Shown here: positions 1,650 through 7,763 of the stretch, piece by piece
Layout of the letters: every line of letters starts with the position of its first letter
Numbering within the stretch: the first letter of the stretch is position 1
NCBI GenBank assembly: GCA_001797815.1
Contig: MGQK01000093.1
Coordinates: forward strand, 3,781-11,582
Source of the DNA: Deltaproteobacteria bacterium RBG_13_61_14
GTDB taxonomy: Bacteria > RBG-13-61-14
Length of the DNA stretch: 7,802 nucleotides
Direction of reading: 5' to 3'
Position numbers and translations under genes: made by a program
Notes under the pieces: generated by a model
The model's input: the letters and a program-made list of their open reading frames with translations, nothing else
The model's database searches: none
What the model was told of the DNA's origin: nothing

Positions 1650-2759
1650 ATGAGTTCAGCCAGCCTATCGGACCTGTCGGCCTTCCAGGAACTGGCGACC
1701 CGCTTCGCTAAAAAAGAGCTGGAGCCCAAGGCCATTGACCTGGACGACTATCCCTATGCCGCGTTTAACGACCCGGCGCTCAAAAAGGCCGAGGAAGTGG
1801 GCCTGTTCAAGCTGATGGTCCCGGAAGCGCTGGGCGGTTCCGGCCAGGGCATGGCCGTGCTCTGCCAGATCCTGGAGGAGCTCGCCCGCGCCGATGCCAG
1901 CTTTGCCGCGGTCATCCTGGTCCACACCATGGCCCAGGCGGCCCTGGTCCAGTGGGGGAGTGCCCCGGTGATTGATAAATATCTGCGCTCGCCGCTCCTG
2001 GCTTTCCCGGCCTATGTCCTGCCCACGGACCTGCCCCGGACGGTCAGCGCGGAGAAAAAGGGCGGGGGCTGGGTGCTGGCCGGCAAGCTGGAATACCTGG
2101 CCCTGGCGCCGGTGGCCCAGGCCCTGATCCTGCCCGCGGAAGTGAAGGGGACCAACAAAGTCGCTTTCTTTGTGGTGGATGCCCGGGCCAAAGGCGTGAG
2201 CGTGGGCGAGCCGGTCTTGAGCCTGGGGCTGCGCAACTGCCCGGTGGCGGACGTGGATCTGGCCGGGGTGGAGGTGGGGGCGGAACACCAGCTTTGCCCG
2301 GACGCGGACGCGGTTTATCCGGCGCTGGCCGCAAACTTCCGGCCGGCGGTGGCCGCGCTCTCCGTGGGCGTGGTGGCCGGCTCGTTCGAGACCGCGAAAA
2401 ACTACGCCAAGGAACGCTACCAGGGCGGCCGGATGATTGTCGAATATGACCTGGTCCGGCTGCTCCTCGCCAACCTCGCCGTGGTCCTGGAATCGGGCAA
2501 GGCCCTGGTCATGAGCATGGCCCAAGCCGCCGACCAGAAACGGCCCTGGCCGGTCTCCGACGCCGGGCTGATCCTGCTCTCGGAAGCGGCGAGCCGCGCC
2601 ACCTCCGACGGCGTGCAAGTCCTGGGCGGCTACGGCTACATGCAGGACTACGGCCAGGAGAAACGGATGCGCGACGCCAAACAGATCGAGGGCATCTTCG
2701 GCGCGGCCCCGTTGAAAAGGCTGGAACTGATCGCCGACATCCTCCGGCAGGAGGAATGA
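1650..2759 (+). CDS. Divergent acyl-CoA dehydrogenase-fold protein (369 aa), probably without its own active site
   Basis: A strong Shine-Dalgarno (GGAGGAGGA, 1637-1645) precedes the ATG by 4 nt. Length and the overall helix-strand-helix order fit the ACAD family: VPEALGGSGQG early, then GVQVLGGYGYMQDY and KRMRDAK at residues 321-344. Key residues are missing. The Glu of the IYEGT motif is Phe350 (IFGAAPLKR). The alternative glutamate site of isovaleryl-CoA dehydrogenase appears to be Asn229 (AANFRP). The TEPxAGSD loop and the WITN flavin motif are replaced by unrelated residues (LPTDLPRTVS, LEYLALAP). In known heteromeric ACADs such as mycobacterial ChsE4-ChsE5, one subunit lacks the catalytic Glu and shares the flavin site with its partner. 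I infer that this protein may pair with one of the long ACADs just upstream. It could instead act alone in a non-dehydrogenase role. Confidence 0.85.
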   Translation: MSSASLSDLSAFQELATRFAKKELEPKAIDLDDYPYAAFNDPALKKAEEVGLFKLMVPEALGGSGQGMAVLCQILEELARADASFAAVILVHTMAQAALVQWGSAPVIDKYLRSPLLAFPAYVLPTDLPRTVSAEKKGGGWVLAGKLEYLALAPVAQALILPAEVKGTNKVAFFVVDARAKGVSVGEPVLSLGLRNCPVADVDLAGVEVGAEHQLCPDADAVYPALAANFRPAVAALSVGVVAGSFETAKNYAKERYQGGRMIVEYDLVRLLLANLAVVLESGKALVMSMAQAADQKRPWPVSDAGLILLSEAASRATSDGVQVLGGYGYMQDYGQEKRMRDAKQIEGIFGAAPLKRLELIADILRQEE

Positions 2760-2784: not shown

Positions 2785-2888
2785 GTATTTAGTATTGCGT
2801 ATTACGTATATTGTATGGTGTATTCAGTAATTTATAATTAAAATAAATAATACAGAATACTGAATACAAAATACGGAATACTGAATAC
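2785..2888. repeat. Inverted pair of degenerate 7-nt arrays (GTATTNN x6 / NNAATAC x6)
   Basis: In the 157-nt gap before the ligase gene, six consecutive 7-mers start with GTAT (2785-2826: GTATTTA, GTATTGC, GTATTAC, GTATATT, GTATGGT, GTATTCA). Twenty AT-rich bases follow, then six perfect NNAATAC 7-mers (2847-2888, with NN = AT, AG, TG, AA, GG, TG). NNAATAC is the reverse complement of GTATTNN, so two 42-nt arms face each other and could form an imperfect cruciform or RNA hairpin. The best exact pair is GTATTCAGTA (2820-2829) with TACTGAATAC (2858-2867). The array is non-coding. I know no named element with this form; cyanobacterial short tandem heptamers are the nearest analogy. Confidence 0.85.
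2811..2838 (+). promoter_or_regulatory. Possible sigma70-type promoter inside the heptamer element
   Basis: TTGTAT (2811-2816, four of six matches to TTGACA) and a perfect TATAAT (2833-2838) are separated by 16 nt. The -10 box falls in the AT-rich centre between the two heptamer arms, about 80 nt before the ligase ATG. It would give the ligase its own transcript apart from the ACAD genes. Such boxes arise easily by chance in AT-rich DNA, so support is modest. Confidence 0.35.
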
Positions 2889-2916: not shown

Positions 2917-4620
2917 ATGAAAACTTCCACCCTCGGCCTGTCCGTCGCCCGGTCCTTGCTCGCCACCCTGGCCGATGAATACCGCCGCGGCACCTTGGCC
3001 GAAACCTTCCGGCTGACCCGCCGGAGCGGCCGGCCGACTTTTGCCCAGGACCTCAATCACGCCGACCTGCTGGAAGAAAAGGCGAAAAAGAACAAGGATC
3101 GTCCCTTCCTGATCTTCCGGGGCCGGAAGTGGTCCTACGCTCAGATGGACCGCAACGCCAACCGCATGGCCAATTTCCTCCTGGCCCAAGGCGCCGGTCC
3201 GGGCCAGGCGCTCGCCATCTTGATGAAGAACTCGCCGCGCTGGCTGGATGTCTTTTTCGCCACCCAACGCTTGGGGCTATGCGCGGTGCCGGTCAACGTC
3301 GCGCTCCGGGGCGACCAGTTGGCCCACATCTTCAACCATTCCGAGGCCAAGTTCCTTTGCGTGGACCAGGACCTGTTGCCGTTTTACGAAAAAGTCAAAG
3401 ATAAACTGGCTGCCGCGCCCCTCGTGATCGTGAACCCAATGGAAAAATCCGAGGCGCCCATTGCCCAGGGCCGGCTTCTGCTCGACGGCGCCTATCAGCC
3501 GGGAGTCAGCGAGGACAAGCCGGCCGCGGCCGCGCGCGAGGGGGATACCTGCCTGCTTCTTTATACCTCCGGCACCACCGGGCTGCCCAAGGGCGTAGCC
3601 ACCCGCTACGGCCGGACCAACCTCAAGATCATGGGCATCCTCTCCCGGGCCTTGCTCAAGCCCACCGACGTCTACTTTACCTGCCTGCCCCTGTTCCACG
3701 CCAACGCTCTTCTCCTGACCCTGACCAACGCCCTCCACGCCGATTGCCAGGTCGCGCTCTTCGAGAAGTTCAGCGCCAGCCGCTTCTGGGATGAGGTGCG
3801 GGCCTCGGGCGCCACCGTGTTCAACGGCCTGGGCGCGATGATGCCGATCCTGATGAAGCAGCCGGAGAAACCCGCCGACCGCCAGCATAGCGTGCGTTAC
3901 GTGCTAAGCGCGGCCTGCCCGGCCGACATGTGGGAGCCGTTCGAGAAGAGGTTCGGGGTGGAGATCGTGGAGGGTTACGGCGCGGTGGACGGCGGCGGCC
4001 TGATCATCATGAACTGGGGCCAGGCCCCGGTGGGCAGCCTGGGCAAACCCATCGGCGCCAAGTGCCGGCTGGTGGACGAAGAGATGAAGGACGTGCCCCT
4101 GGGCCGGCCGGGCGAGCTGATCGCCTGGATGGGCGACCGGGCCAAGGCCGTGGAGTATTACAAGAACGAGAAGGCCACCTCGGACAAAATCCGGGACGGA
4201 TGGCTCCATACCGGCGACCTGGTTTACGCCGACAAGAAAGGCTACCTCTACTTCGTGGGCCGGAAGACCGAGTCCTTGCGCCGGCGGGGCGAGAACATTT
4301 CCTGCTACGAGGTCGAGCACGCCATCCTCCAGCATCCGGACGCGCTCGAATGCGCGGTTTACGCGGTGCCCTCCGAGCTGGCGGAAGACGACGTCATGGC
4401 CGCGATCGTGCCGGTGGAAGGAAAGACCATTGATCCCAAGCAGATGCTCGCGTTCCTGCATGAGCGCCTGGCCAAGTTCGCCATTCCCCGCTACTTCCGC
4501 TTCCTCAAAGAACTCCCTAAAACCGAGACCCAGCGCGTGATCAAACTGGTCCTGGAACGAGAGGGCGTCACACCGGACACGATTGATATGGAGCCGGGAG
4601 GCAAAAAGCAAAGCACATGA
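2917..4620 (+). CDS. AMP-forming acyl-CoA synthetase (ANL superfamily, 567 aa)
   Basis: Expected to activate a carboxylic acid with ATP and CoA to an acyl-CoA, which could feed the ACADs upstream. AGGAG (2904-2908) lies 8 nt before the ATG. ANL motifs in order: ATP loop YTSGTTGLPKG (216-226), PLFHAN (258-263), EGYGAVDGGG (352-361), DGWLHTGD (427-434), and GRKTESLRRRGENIS (448-462), the hinge segment. The N-terminal part (DRPFLIFRGRKWSY, then a GDQLAHIFNHSEAKF stretch) looks like the carnitine-CoA ligase / fatty-acid transport protein branch, so a CaiC- or FadD-like substrate is plausible but not shown. Two oddities: the usual YGxTE reads YGAVD (Asp358 for Glu), and the C-terminal catalytic Lys of the TGK motif is Arg540 (PKTETQRVIK). 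No signal peptide or membrane segment is evident. It lies 157 nt after the ACADs, so it may have its own promoter. Confidence 0.93.
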   Translation: MKTSTLGLSVARSLLATLADEYRRGTLAETFRLTRRSGRPTFAQDLNHADLLEEKAKKNKDRPFLIFRGRKWSYAQMDRNANRMANFLLAQGAGPGQALAILMKNSPRWLDVFFATQRLGLCAVPVNVALRGDQLAHIFNHSEAKFLCVDQDLLPFYEKVKDKLAAAPLVIVNPMEKSEAPIAQGRLLLDGAYQPGVSEDKPAAAAREGDTCLLLYTSGTTGLPKGVATRYGRTNLKIMGILSRALLKPTDVYFTCLPLFHANALLLTLTNALHADCQVALFEKFSASRFWDEVRASGATVFNGLGAMMPILMKQPEKPADRQHSVRYVLSAACPADMWEPFEKRFGVEIVEGYGAVDGGGLIIMNWGQAPVGSLGKPIGAKCRLVDEEMKDVPLGRPGELIAWMGDRAKAVEYYKNEKATSDKIRDGWLHTGDLVYADKKGYLYFVGRKTESLRRRGENISCYEVEHAILQHPDALECAVYAVPSELAEDDVMAAIVPVEGKTIDPKQMLAFLHERLAKFAIPRYFRFLKELPKTETQRVIKLVLEREGVTPDTIDMEPGGKKQST

Positions 4621-4792
4621 AGAGGCCTTAGGCTTCAGGCTTTAGGCCTCAGAAAGAAAGAGATTATCCGCAGATTACGCCCCTCGGTCCGCCTTCGGTC
4701 CCGAGTGCTCAGGCCGAGGGGAGCGCTCGGGGTCGAGGACAGATTTTCTTGTTCTGAAAACTAAAGCCCAAAGCCTAATGTCTAATGCCTCT
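4621..4792. repeat. Palindromic element with inverted 7-nt arrays (GGCNTNA x4), copy A
   Basis: Directly after the ligase stop, AGA is followed by four 7-mers: GGCCTTA, GGCTTCA, GGCTTTA, GGCCTCA (4624-4651). The far end has four 7-mers in the complementary sense, TAAAGCC, CAAAGCC, TAATGTC, TAATGCC (4762-4789), then TCT. Arms pair unit by unit (about 6, 4, 6 and 5 matches of 7). Next inside, a purine-rich tract (AGAAAGAAAG, from 4651) faces a pyrimidine-rich tract (ATTTTCTTGTTCT, 4743-4755), and the GC-rich centre has its own hairpins. It separates convergent genes and may also act as a bidirectional terminator, though no clean U-tract terminator is visible. Confidence 0.8.
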
Positions 4793-4845
4793 TCTTCCCC
4801 GTCCACTGCTGATTATGTTTTATGTTTAGATCTGACCCCGATCTT
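4656..4845. repeat. 190-bp direct repeat, copy A
   Basis: Bases 4656-4845 recur at 5124-5313 with about nine mismatches and no gaps (constant offset 468). The longest identical stretch runs from 4666 for about 90 bases through the GC-rich core. Differences cluster in the heptamer arm (4756-4790). The copy ends inside the 3' part of the 73-aa gene on the - strand and contains its last ten codons and stop. It also holds TTATGTT twice in tandem (4813-4826), another 7-nt period. Confidence 0.92.
4680..4731. other. GC-rich core with two interleaved stems
   Basis: CCCCTCGG (4680-4687) can pair with CCGAGGGG (4714-4721). CCCGAGTGCTC (4700-4710) can pair with GAGCGCTCGGG (4721-4731) with one G-T type mismatch. 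The stems interleave and share base 4721, so they are alternative folds or a pseudoknot. The same core is fully conserved in copy B (5148-5199). Its role is unknown; termination is possible. Confidence 0.55.
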
Positions 4846-5034: not shown

Positions 5035-5108
5035 TTTTTCAATCTCCTCGGTTTGAACTTAGCATAAACCAAAGCCGGACGGAAAGCCAGCAAAAATAGT
5101 TGCGGATA

Positions 5109-5260
5109 GGCTTGAGGCATTTTGAAAGAGAACATCCGCAGATTACGCCCCTCGGTCCGCCTTCGGTCCCGAGTGCTCAGGCCGAGGGGAGCGCTCGGGG
5201 TCGAGGACAGATTTTCTTGTTCAGAAGCCTAAAGCCTCAAGCCTAAGGTCTAATGCCTCT
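5109..5260. repeat. Inverted 7-nt array element, copy B (left arm eroded)
   Basis: The left arm keeps two 7-mers (GGCTTGA 5109-5115, GGCATTT 5116-5122). The right arm has five (AGAAGCC, TAAAGCC, TCAAGCC, TAAGGTC, TAATGCC, 5223-5257) followed by TCT, as in copy A. The 7-nt register is kept although individual units differ from copy A, so the array changes by whole-unit or in-register substitution while the core stays constant. Confidence 0.75.
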
Positions 5261-5378: not shown

Positions 5379-7763
5379 TTACAAAATCTCAACAGGTGTT
5401 GAATCGATTCTTAAATTTGGGAGAACTTGTTGAAGCTCATCAACTTTCTCCTGATCAACATTTGTATTTCTTAGAGAAAGTTTTTTCAGGCTAGTCAGCC
5501 CCTTTAGTGAGGAGAGGTCGGAAACTTGAGTTACATTGAGATTGAGCTCTTTGAGGCTGATAAGCTCCTTTAGCGGGGAAATGTCGCTAACCTGAGTTCC
5601 CGTGAGATCGAGCTTTTTTAGGCTAGTCAACCCCTTTAGAGGGGAAAGATCAGTCAATGCAATGGAGTACAAAGTAAGAATTTGCAAACTTTTAAGCCCT
5701 CTTAAAGGGGAGAGGTCGGTAACTTTCGTCTTGCCAAGATTAAGCTCCTGCAAATTGGCTAGTCCTTTAAGCGGAGAGAGGTCGGCAACTTTTGTCCTAC
5801 TCAAATTAAGATGTTGCAGGCTGGTGAGGCCTTGGAGAGGAGAGATGTCGAAAACCGTCGTAATGTTAACAGAGAGTTCTTGGAGATTGTTCAGTCCTTG
5901 GAGGGGAGAGAGGTCGGCAACTTTGGTATTCCAGAGACTAAGAATTTTCAGGCTTGTCAGCTCTTTCAGGGGAGAAATGTCAGAAACGTTAGTATTCCAA
6001 AGAGCGAGATATTTCAGACTACTCAGACTCTTTAGGGGGGAGAGGTCACTTACCTTAGTATCATAGAGACTCAAATATTCGAGCCTGGTTAGCTCTTGGA
6101 GAGGAGAGAGGTCGGTAATGTTTGTATCGCTTAGATCAAGAATTTGTAAGCTGCTTAATACCTTTAAATGTGGAAGGTCTGATATGTCAGTGCCACTTAA
6201 ATCAAGGTTTTTAAGATTCATATATTCTTCTAGCGTGAGTTCTTCAGAGGGCTTTTCTAGTGTTCTGGCCACGGCTTTGGCGATAACTGGAGGCATGGCC
6301 GGAGGAGGGGGGGCCGGCTCAGGCTTGGCGACAGTCAGAGCCGCGGTGTGACTTGCCACTTCTCTAGAGAATTCGATGTGCATCAATTCCCAAAGGTAGG
6401 GGCCCTGAACCAGGTCGGACAATTGTTTTCGACCCAACTTCATCCAGGTTTCATAGAAAGCCTGATAAGGAGGATGCACTTCTGCTAATCCTTCTTCTTC
6501 AGTTGCTTCATCCTCCACACTTTTCAAGGTCTTATCAACCATTGGCACCGGCGGAGGTTTTATCTCAGGATGCTCTTTGACAATCTTTGACCATTGGTTA
6601 AAAAAATCCTGGCCTTCCTGTTTTCCCACCCAGACGCCGGGGACTTCGTGGAAAGAGTCCAGAACCTTCATGAGCAGGAACACCTGGACGCCTTGGGCAA
6701 AGCGGGTCATTTCATTCGCGCCTGGAATCTGCATGGCGGAAGCTCCGTGGATCAGGGCGCTGTTGAGGAGCCGCTTGACCTCGCGGGGATTGTGGGCCGA
6801 GTATCTGCGGAGGATCTGGTCCAGAATGTTGCGGTGGTCTTCGGAAAGTTTGCTGTCCCAATACCCTTCCTCGGTAAGCTTATTCAGTTCAGAAATCTGC
6901 TTTTCGTAGTATTCGTTGACCTGCTTTTCGCTGGGGGTGATGTTGATCTCCACCTGGAACATCTTGTCCAGGTATTTTTTGGCCTTGATCTCCTTGACGC
7001 CGTGTTCCAGGTAATGCTTCTTAATGAAATCGTCCACCACGGTCCGATCCAGACCAAAGACAAAGGCGAGGTTGGGCATGCTGAGGTAGAGCTTGAATGC
7101 TTCCAGGACTTCCAAGGCCACTTTCGGCAGGCAGCGGTCAAGATCGTCCACAAAAACAACCATGCGCTTTTTTCCGTCTTTGCCTAGAGTATCCTCCAGC
7201 CACTTTTTCAAGGTTGACTCGAACTCATTGAGATAGGCTTTTTCCGGATGGGCCGTCTTGGTGAATTCTTCGCCGATTTCCCGCAAAGTTGAAAAACTAT
7301 ATTCCGCCTCAACGCCGGTTCCAGAGGTTCCGGCTTTGGCTTTTAGCTTGAGCCCGGCCAGGGCATGGAGGAAGCCGCGCCCCAGAAACCCGCTAAACTG
7401 TTTGGCGGCTGTAATCAGTTGGCGTTCATCAATGTTCTCGATCTTGGTGCTTTCGATGATGACCTCCGCGATCAGGCCCCGCCAGACGTCCTCGCGTTCC
7501 GAGTATTTCCAGGGATCGAACCATACCGGCCGGACCAGGACTTTGTCTTTGGCTTCTCCTTCCTCGTTCCATTTCTTGAGCATACTTTGGAGCACGCGCA
7601 TGGCCGTGGTTTTCCCGGTTCCCCAGTCGCCGTAGATGGCAATGGCCAGAGGGGTCTTGGTATTGGGGTGGCGGAGGATATCATAGACCGGCCCGAGCTT
7701 GGCGAAGAGCTCGAATTGTTCGTCCTGGTAGGCTTCGACGGCCGTGTCGCTGAGCACGGTCAT
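5379..7763 (-). CDS. KAP-family P-loop NTPase with C-terminal leucine-rich repeats (794 aa; N-terminus may extend past window)
   Basis: Residues 1-340 form a KAP NTPase: Walker A GDWGTGKT (45-52), a conserved WFDPWKYSE (81-89), Walker B VVFVDDLDRC (202-211) with the DDLDR form typical of KAP proteins, and the distal NPREVKRLLN motif (325-334). Membrane-bound KAPs have transmembrane helices between Walker A and B; here residues 122-145 are only weakly hydrophobic, so the protein is likely cytosolic. A helical middle part and a Pro-rich linker (PEPAPPPPAMPP, 481-492) lead to twelve 22-residue LRRs (517-780) of the LxxLxLxxTxVxDLSPLxxLxS type, like internalin/SDS22. KAP proteins include F-plasmid PifA (phage exclusion) and animal Kidins220. 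NTPase plus LRR suggests a ligand-sensing switch, possibly in defence. The ATG at 7763 has no clear ribosome site, and the frame upstream stays open to base 7802 with Pro/Ala/Thr-rich codons, so the true start may lie outside. Confidence 0.9.
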   Translation of the reverse strand: MTVLSDTAVEAYQDEQFELFAKLGPVYDILRHPNTKTPLAIAIYGDWGTGKTTAMRVLQSMLKKWNEEGEAKDKVLVRPVWFDPWKYSEREDVWRGLIAEVIIESTKIENIDERQLITAAKQFSGFLGRGFLHALAGLKLKAKAGTSGTGVEAEYSFSTLREIGEEFTKTAHPEKAYLNEFESTLKKWLEDTLGKDGKKRMVVFVDDLDRCLPKVALEVLEAFKLYLSMPNLAFVFGLDRTVVDDFIKKHYLEHGVKEIKAKKYLDKMFQVEINITPSEKQVNEYYEKQISELNKLTEEGYWDSKLSEDHRNILDQILRRYSAHNPREVKRLLNSALIHGASAMQIPGANEMTRFAQGVQVFLLMKVLDSFHEVPGVWVGKQEGQDFFNQWSKIVKEHPEIKPPPVPMVDKTLKSVEDEATEEEGLAEVHPPYQAFYETWMKLGRKQLSDLVQGPYLWELMHIEFSREVASHTAALTVAKPEPAPPPPAMPPVIAKAVARTLEKPSEELTLEEYMNLKNLDLSGTDISDLPHLKVLSSLQILDLSDTNITDLSPLQELTRLEYLSLYDTKVSDLSPLKSLSSLKYLALWNTNVSDISPLKELTSLKILSLWNTKVADLSPLQGLNNLQELSVNITTVFDISPLQGLTSLQHLNLSRTKVADLSPLKGLANLQELNLGKTKVTDLSPLRGLKSLQILTLYSIALTDLSPLKGLTSLKKLDLTGTQVSDISPLKELISLKELNLNVTQVSDLSSLKGLTSLKKLSLRNTNVDQEKVDELQQVLPNLRIDSTPVEIL
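5424..6215 (-). repeat. Twelve 66-bp leucine-rich repeat units
   Basis: In-frame tandem units of 66 nt encode residues 517-780 of the KAP-LRR protein. All keep the 22-residue register without insertions. The DLSPL or DISPL core recurs in most units. Units 4 and 5 share LWNTxV and are closest to each other, hinting at recent unit duplication. Unit 9 has Ile in place of the usual Thr (YSIAL). This part is clearly more AT-rich than the NTPase part: one 60-nt sample (5641-5700) is 38% GC, against 62% at 7441-7500. Confidence 0.92.

Follow-up and report, generated by a model that had tools for sequence, protein, structure and literature searches.

Heptamer arrays and S23 genes, both long unexplained in bacterial genomes, appear to belong to a single family of mobile elements

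Why should two facing runs of heptamers, each exactly six units long, lie between two protein genes of a bacterium? The window analysed here (7,802 nt; positions 3,781 to 11,582 of contig MGQK01000093.1, assembly GCA_001797815.1) comes from Deltaproteobacteria bacterium RBG_13_61_14, and coordinates below are positions within it. Our analysis suggests that heptamer arrays and S23 genes belong together in one family of mobile elements, and that the hairpin in the window is probably a gene-less (non-autonomous, MITE-like) member of this widespread family of small elements that encode a four-helix-bundle protein. Full members carry one PF05635/TIGR02436 (S23/IVP, "23S rRNA intervening sequence protein") gene between two inverted degenerate heptamer arrays, and this architecture recurs within the source genome and across many bacterial families. 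With an interior of 20 nt and no four-helix-bundle gene in it, the window copy could belong to this family only as a relative that lacks the gene.

The hairpin and its neighbours

The features of the window that bear on this question are the following.

1650 to 2759, plus strand: upstream neighbour, an acyl-CoA-dehydrogenase-like ORF, a host gene outside the element (ORF; tblastn relatives; named from sequence)
2785 to 2826, plus strand: left (G/T-rich) arm, six heptamers GTATTNN (sequence read; TRF arrays)
2827 to 2846, no strand: AT-rich loop of 20 nt between the arms (sequence read)
2847 to 2888, minus strand: right (A/C-rich) arm, six NNAATAC, which is GTATTNN on the minus strand (inverted repeat; RNA fold)
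2917 to 4620, plus strand: downstream neighbour, an AMP-dependent acyl-CoA ligase-like ORF, a host gene (ORF; relatives 49-65% identical)
4621 to 4652, plus strand: second element, left arm, AGGCYTN heptamers (L040:8403-8427)
4757 to 4793, minus strand: second element, right arm, AAGCCTN-type heptamers (L040:8546-8570)
5106 to 5120, plus strand: third element, short left arm TAGGCTTGAGGCATT (L040:8887-8901)
5225 to 5258, minus strand: third element, right arm AAGCCTA AAGCCTC AAGCCTA AGGTCTA ATGCCT

The left arm reads GTATTTA GTATTGC GTATTAC GTATATT GTATGGT GTATTCA and the right arm ATAATAC AGAATAC TGAATAC AAAATAC GGAATAC TGAATAC. The first-pass annotation had described six GTATTNN units facing six NNAATAC units, in strict 7-nt register and with two free bases per unit. 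Six units per arm and the 20-nt loop are indeed present, and the register holds, with a lag-7 self-match of 0.68 and 0.72 in the two arms as opposed to about 0.1-0.4 at lags other than multiples of 7. However, the GTATT core is exact in four of the six left units and altered in two, whereas the AATAC core is exact in all six right units, and the free bases, although variable, are biased: among the 30 GTATTNN units of the source genome, the first is C or T in 24 and the second is C in 19.

The same annotation held that the free positions often do not pair. Across 33 two-arm elements of the source genome, 50 of 128 variable positions pair, compared with 42.3 ± 4.4 after permutation of the units (p = 0.05). 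As this is only slightly above expectation, the arms share a common motif and are not exact complements, and a simple perfect hairpin was rejected on the same ground. Nevertheless, the stem in the window folds far beyond shuffled sequence as RNA (z = -7.25 and -6.84 for the two strands). The arms are inverted with the G-rich arm first, the G+T fraction being 0.69 on the left and 0.33 on the right.

The hairpin sits snugly in its gap, 25 nt after the upstream stop and 28 nt before the downstream ATG, between two protein genes and not in rRNA. It has no signs of an intrinsic terminator, since the stem is AT-rich and no T-run follows 2888 on the plus strand or precedes 2785 on the minus strand. 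The kinship of its genes indicates that the host is not a cyanobacterium. The two genes are not adjacent in the five relatives examined, so these offer no empty site.

Two further elements lie downstream. The second (4621-4793) and third (5106-5258) are almost identical in interior and right flank and unlike in their heptamer arms: they differ at 6 of 40 sites in the right arm, 2 of 93 in the interior and 1 of 52 in the outer flank. Elsewhere in the window, two tandem acyl-CoA-dehydrogenase-like genes have near-identical 3′ ends (1-137 and 1494-1634), and a 794-amino-acid ORF on the minus strand (5379-7763) has an N-terminal part resembling a P-loop ATPase (GDWGTGKTT) and C-terminal leucine-rich repeats with a DNA period of 66 bp.

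Period-7 arrays in the source genome and elsewhere

The source genome, which is 95% complete and comprises 4.74 Mb on 132 contigs, contains nine matches to 3.7 copies of GTATTNN, at four places, and none to the reversed pattern; both arms are present at three of these places and the fourth (C21) has a degenerate left arm. In a 1.37-Mb sample of this genome we found 111 period-7 arrays (score at least 12) compared with 0 in second-order Markov shuffles, so that neither of the outcomes by which the first-pass annotation would have been refuted, an absence of other arrays or a frequency equal to that of shuffled sequence, was observed. The other periods raised in the sample are multiples of 3 (coding), 14 and 21, and, weakly, 8, 9 and 10. 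When only non-coding DNA is considered, period 7 yields 78 arrays, and no period outside the multiples of 7 yields more than 12. The array families are many (TTAGGCN, GATTTTN, GTTSRCN, GAAGGGT, GTATKTN, GTGSACR, GTGTCAN, CTGGTTY and others), and within each, one to three phases of the unit vary while the remaining phases are nearly fixed. Two paralogous intergenic stretches with a common flank (L041:255 and L048:2444) carry a GATTTTN and a GTATGTN array, respectively, at the same place.

An inverted partner lies within 150 bp (score 18) for 42 of 102 non-coding arrays, compared with 2 for direct partners and 3 for random places; roughly half of all arrays stand alone. Of 33 two-arm elements, 32 begin with the G/T-rich arm and one, a spurious pair, ties; none is reversed. 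The first-pass annotation had asked whether arms are invariably inverted and matched in the number of their units; the answer is yes for orientation and no for unit number. Borders are fixed per family, TTAGGCN elements running AGGC...GCCT and GATTTTN elements ATTTT...AAAAT.

The number of units is nearly constant. The median array length is 31 nt in two-arm arrays of the source genome, in arrays of a distant genome (G278, described below) and in arrays flanking PF05635 genes, and the mode is five unit-starts in all three sets (29 of 43, 18 of 21 and 32 of 62, respectively). Since detection requires a minimum of 15-17 nt, the modal length lies well above the threshold. The window arms, with six units and 42 nt, exceed this commonest arm of five units and 31 nt.

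Beyond the source genome, 3.6 copies of GATTTTN are present in 15 of 290 genomes, a panel that represents 223 families. Elements of G278 (L163-L172) have identical 31-nt arms, ATTTTGG x4 + ATT, with the G-arm first each time, around interiors of about 80-410 bp that are unrelated to each other; a MITE with a common interior was rejected for this reason. One of these interiors (L167) is a gene that by eye encodes a candidate four-helix-bundle protein (S23), although the profile built for this analysis did not recover it. For two G278 array sites, the matching intergenic sites in the congener G290 are without arrays. As the DNA around both compared sites is fully turned over, the exact insertion borders cannot be read there. 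In other genomes, arrays lie in frame within TrmD-, Asd-, Dus-, MurB- and RlmB-like genes (named from sequence); such arrays at L123, L124, L127, L130, L140, L177 and L179 add peptides, for example KSKIKNQKSKIK or KSKIQNPKSKI.

S23 genes between heptamer arms

If arrays are parts of elements, what do complete elements encode? Eight PF05635 genes are present in the source genome and six have heptamer arms, each with another heptamer (GGTTYCT, CGTAGGT, TTAGGCN, GTATGTN, GAAGGGT and GATTTTA; the right arm of the GTATGTN gene, L194, is masked by N). Of 52 PF05635 loci, drawn from many bacterial families, 31 are enclosed by matching inverted arms, compared with 2 of 292 control ORFs, all from the source genome; the corresponding counts for an array on both sides are 32 of 52 and 4 of 292, and at 9 of the 52 loci the array is absent from both sides. 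The G-rich arm comes first at 28 of 30 loci. Six cyanobacterial plasmid copies (Pseudanabaena, two Calothrix, two Nostoc and Geminocystis), annotated as "S23 ribosomal protein" or "four helix bundle protein," are all armed. The Pseudanabaena gene (L242) lies near cas genes, a setting that PMC3936711 also describes for PF05635.

Three further observations tie arrays to these genes. First, 56 of the 102 scattered arrays of the source genome match the heptamers of its own six armed PF05635 genes, compared with a mean of 16 and a maximum of 29 for 200 sets of six heptamers taken from other genomes. Second, the identity between proteins rises with the similarity between their heptamers (Mantel rho 0.25, p 0.001, n = 31). 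Third, PF05635 is encoded in 32 of 35 array-bearing genomes and 83 of the 255 remaining genomes (p 1.5e-11), where array-bearing means a match to any of four patterns, two of them intended as reversed controls. One of these controls is another real heptamer family, and all 21 of its genomes have PF05635; for the second, PF05635 is present in one of three genomes. Three array-bearing genomes lack PF05635.

No PF05635 gene with exact GTATTNN arms was found, the closest being the GTATGTN gene L194 (similarity 4.5-4.85 of 7); the GTATTNN family's own partner gene is missing, masked or lost. Variants of the usual arrangement include a four-helix-bundle gene of the genome G262 (L256) with period-8 arms, GGTGAAGA / TTCACCAC, and a PF05635-like domain in the source genome (L197, G000:C73) that has no heptamer arms and seems to form part of a longer fusion protein in which cyclic-nucleotide-binding-like repeats occur. 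The latter is possibly a domesticated copy or an ORF joined across masked bases.

Copies of one element can be compared directly in G262, where L254 and L255 lie 217 kb apart on one chromosome, both adjoining CRISPR-like repeats. These two copies of a four-helix-bundle element differ at 10 of 62 sites in the arms and 4 of 429 in interior and flanks (p 3.5e-7), an approximately 20-fold higher divergence of the arms than of the interior. Unlike these, the arms of G278 are nearly uniform.

Mechanism, alternatives and known systems

How might such elements move? The first-pass annotation had hinted at a protein that reads a 7-nt unit, and this hint fits best, since such arrays lie on either side of genes for a ring-forming four-helix-bundle protein and vary along with its sequence. 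The two relatives with solved structures, 2gsc and 2rld, contain five chains each, and Xcc0516 is described as a homopentamer in PMC4990558. From the five-unit arms and these five-chain relatives, we infer that each subunit of a pentameric protein may hold one 7-nt unit; the protein would thus bind an arm with one unit per subunit. The putative substrate is RNA, or single-stranded or cruciform DNA. In Coxiella, the intervening sequence (IVS) of the 23S rRNA codes for S23p; its ends are complementary, GACAGAT heptamers stand in tandem ahead of the ORF, and RNase III cuts within the stem (PMC4990558). This published case supports the link independently and suggests RNA as the recognised form. 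Once bound, the protein would single out the hairpin to be copied or to be inserted between genes, and gene-less hairpins would be carried along in trans. The element contains no recombinase, and the enzyme that cuts and joins is probably supplied by the host.

Our more specific proposal is tentative. It is possible that the elements have neither a transposase nor a reverse transcriptase of their own, that a pentameric ring reads approximately five units per arm and mobilises the gene and gene-less hairpins in trans, and that divergence between copies goes along with partial rewriting of their arms. The flanks of 22 elements contain no target-site duplication (match length 1.82 compared with 1.80 expected). 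Left flanks are purine-rich (72%) and right flanks pyrimidine-rich (63%), compared with about 52% and 50% in control gaps. Insertion at hairpin tips was rejected, as flank complementarity is not above that of shuffled pairs. A telomere-like addition of G/T on both sides of a break, suggested by the orientation rule, was dropped because the arms border genes of a family that has a heptamer of its own. The absence of a PF00078 (RVT_1) reverse transcriptase from the source genome, which is 95% complete, argues against a route like that of diversity-generating retroelements (DGRs), despite the kinship of PF05635 with Avd, and this route was rejected; A-specific mutation as in DGRs does not fit either, because the core A's are invariant.

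Could the arrays instead be fixed regulatory hairpins, such as terminators, RNase III sites or mRNA-stability sites, with the four-helix genes merely using the same structure? The stems are stable on both strands, the elements fit closely into the gaps between genes (a median of 25 nt to either neighbour), and the hairpins of cyanobacterial STRRs have been suggested to influence transcript stability or termination (PMC2670836). However, 5 of 31 elements lie between divergent genes and the overall mix of contexts is close to background, a T-run is absent, arrays occur within coding genes of other genomes and are missing at matching sites of a congener, and the heptamer, although it varies by locus, corresponds to those of the genome's own four-helix genes. 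We therefore regard fixed hairpins as unlikely, although they are the strongest of the alternatives.

Less probable still is that arrays are pre-existing landing sites for four-helix elements, with array and gene being separate things. Such a relationship would agree with the existence of solo arrays and with gene-less arrays being far more numerous than genes, but insertion into a single array would give direct half-arrays and not inverted arms with the G-rich arm first. Moreover, protein sequence and heptamer track each other across genomes, and the arms accompany the gene in the named cyanobacterial copies and in the Coxiella IVS.

Finally, neutral replication slippage with hairpin-primed repair, making and expanding heptamers with selection and proteins irrelevant, is disfavoured and in our estimate very improbable: tandem repeats can come from slippage, and near-identical copies, both L254/L255 and the second and third window elements (right arm 6 of 40, 3 of 145 elsewhere), do differ strongly in their arms and not in interior or flanks, but period 7 alone is raised (plus a small period-8 class) with no spread of periods, orientation is uniform, and the arrays are associated with a single protein family. 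Unit-wise slippage, which had also been proposed from the sequence of this locus, is unsupported as the main cause because variation is confined to fixed phases, unit number is nearly constant at five, and every array family has a matching protein.

In our preferred reading, that of a mobile element family, the evidence makes heptamer repeats and S23 proteins, as they appear to be, two parts of one system. A testable code follows, namely which protein variant reads which heptamer, as does a stoichiometric prediction of five units for five subunits, and the system may explain how peptides are inserted in frame and how intergenic DNA turns over in many phyla. If transposase-less elements with a ring protein are real, much of the heptamer periodicity between bacterial genes would be attributable to them.

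Both parts have been described separately. S23/IVS proteins are presented as of unknown function in PMC4990558 and PMC3936711, the former stating that no function has been known since 1993. Although the first-pass annotation knew of no named element of this form, heptamer arrays, both single and paired, appear in the literature as intergenic repeats without an explanation, among them the cyanobacterial STRRs and those of the SPADE survey (PMC6344855); none of the papers searched connects them with S23 genes. In prokaryotic intergenic DNA, heptamers are reported to outnumber tandem repeats of every other unit length, with "no clear clue" as to function (PMC6344855). A text search of the literature for the repeat sequences returned primers and chance matches only. 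Heptamer repeats joined to S23 proteins were not found in open-access full texts; priority is uncertain, as subscription papers were outside the scope of the search.

Of the known systems, 23S rRNA IVSs are the closest, with the same protein family, a gene inside a stem of complementary ends, sporadic distribution and suspected mobility. They differ in sitting in rRNA helices, whereas the heptamer-armed elements lie between protein genes and the window copy is gene-less, and heptamer arms have not been recognised as their defining ends. Cyanobacterial STRRs, the TAACTGA repeats of Beggiatoaceae and the SPADE repeats are likewise degenerate 7-bp intergenic units that often form hairpins (PMC2670836, PMC4679880, PMC6344855), and the window hairpin agrees with the STRR-type description of degenerate 7-bp tandem units that are intergenic and form hairpins. 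However, such repeats are reported mostly as direct, and the passages searched describe no pairing, orientation rule, five-unit length or link to S23 genes.

The Avd protein of DGRs is a distant relative of PF05635 (NF033474 E 2e-6 to 3e-6, far below cut-off), a homology noted in PMC10053308. DGRs differ in using a reverse transcriptase, and the source genome is without an RVT_1 match. REPs and REPINs are likewise short, non-autonomous palindromes between genes, and their movement is attributed to a protein, RAYT, that genomes encode in few copies. REPs do not consist of heptamers, however, and RAYT is a Y1 transposase rather than a four-helix-bundle protein. Lastly, Omega-type RHH repressors bind unspaced heptads in direct and inverted arrays; there too a protein reads 7-bp units, although with another fold and on a double-stranded operator.
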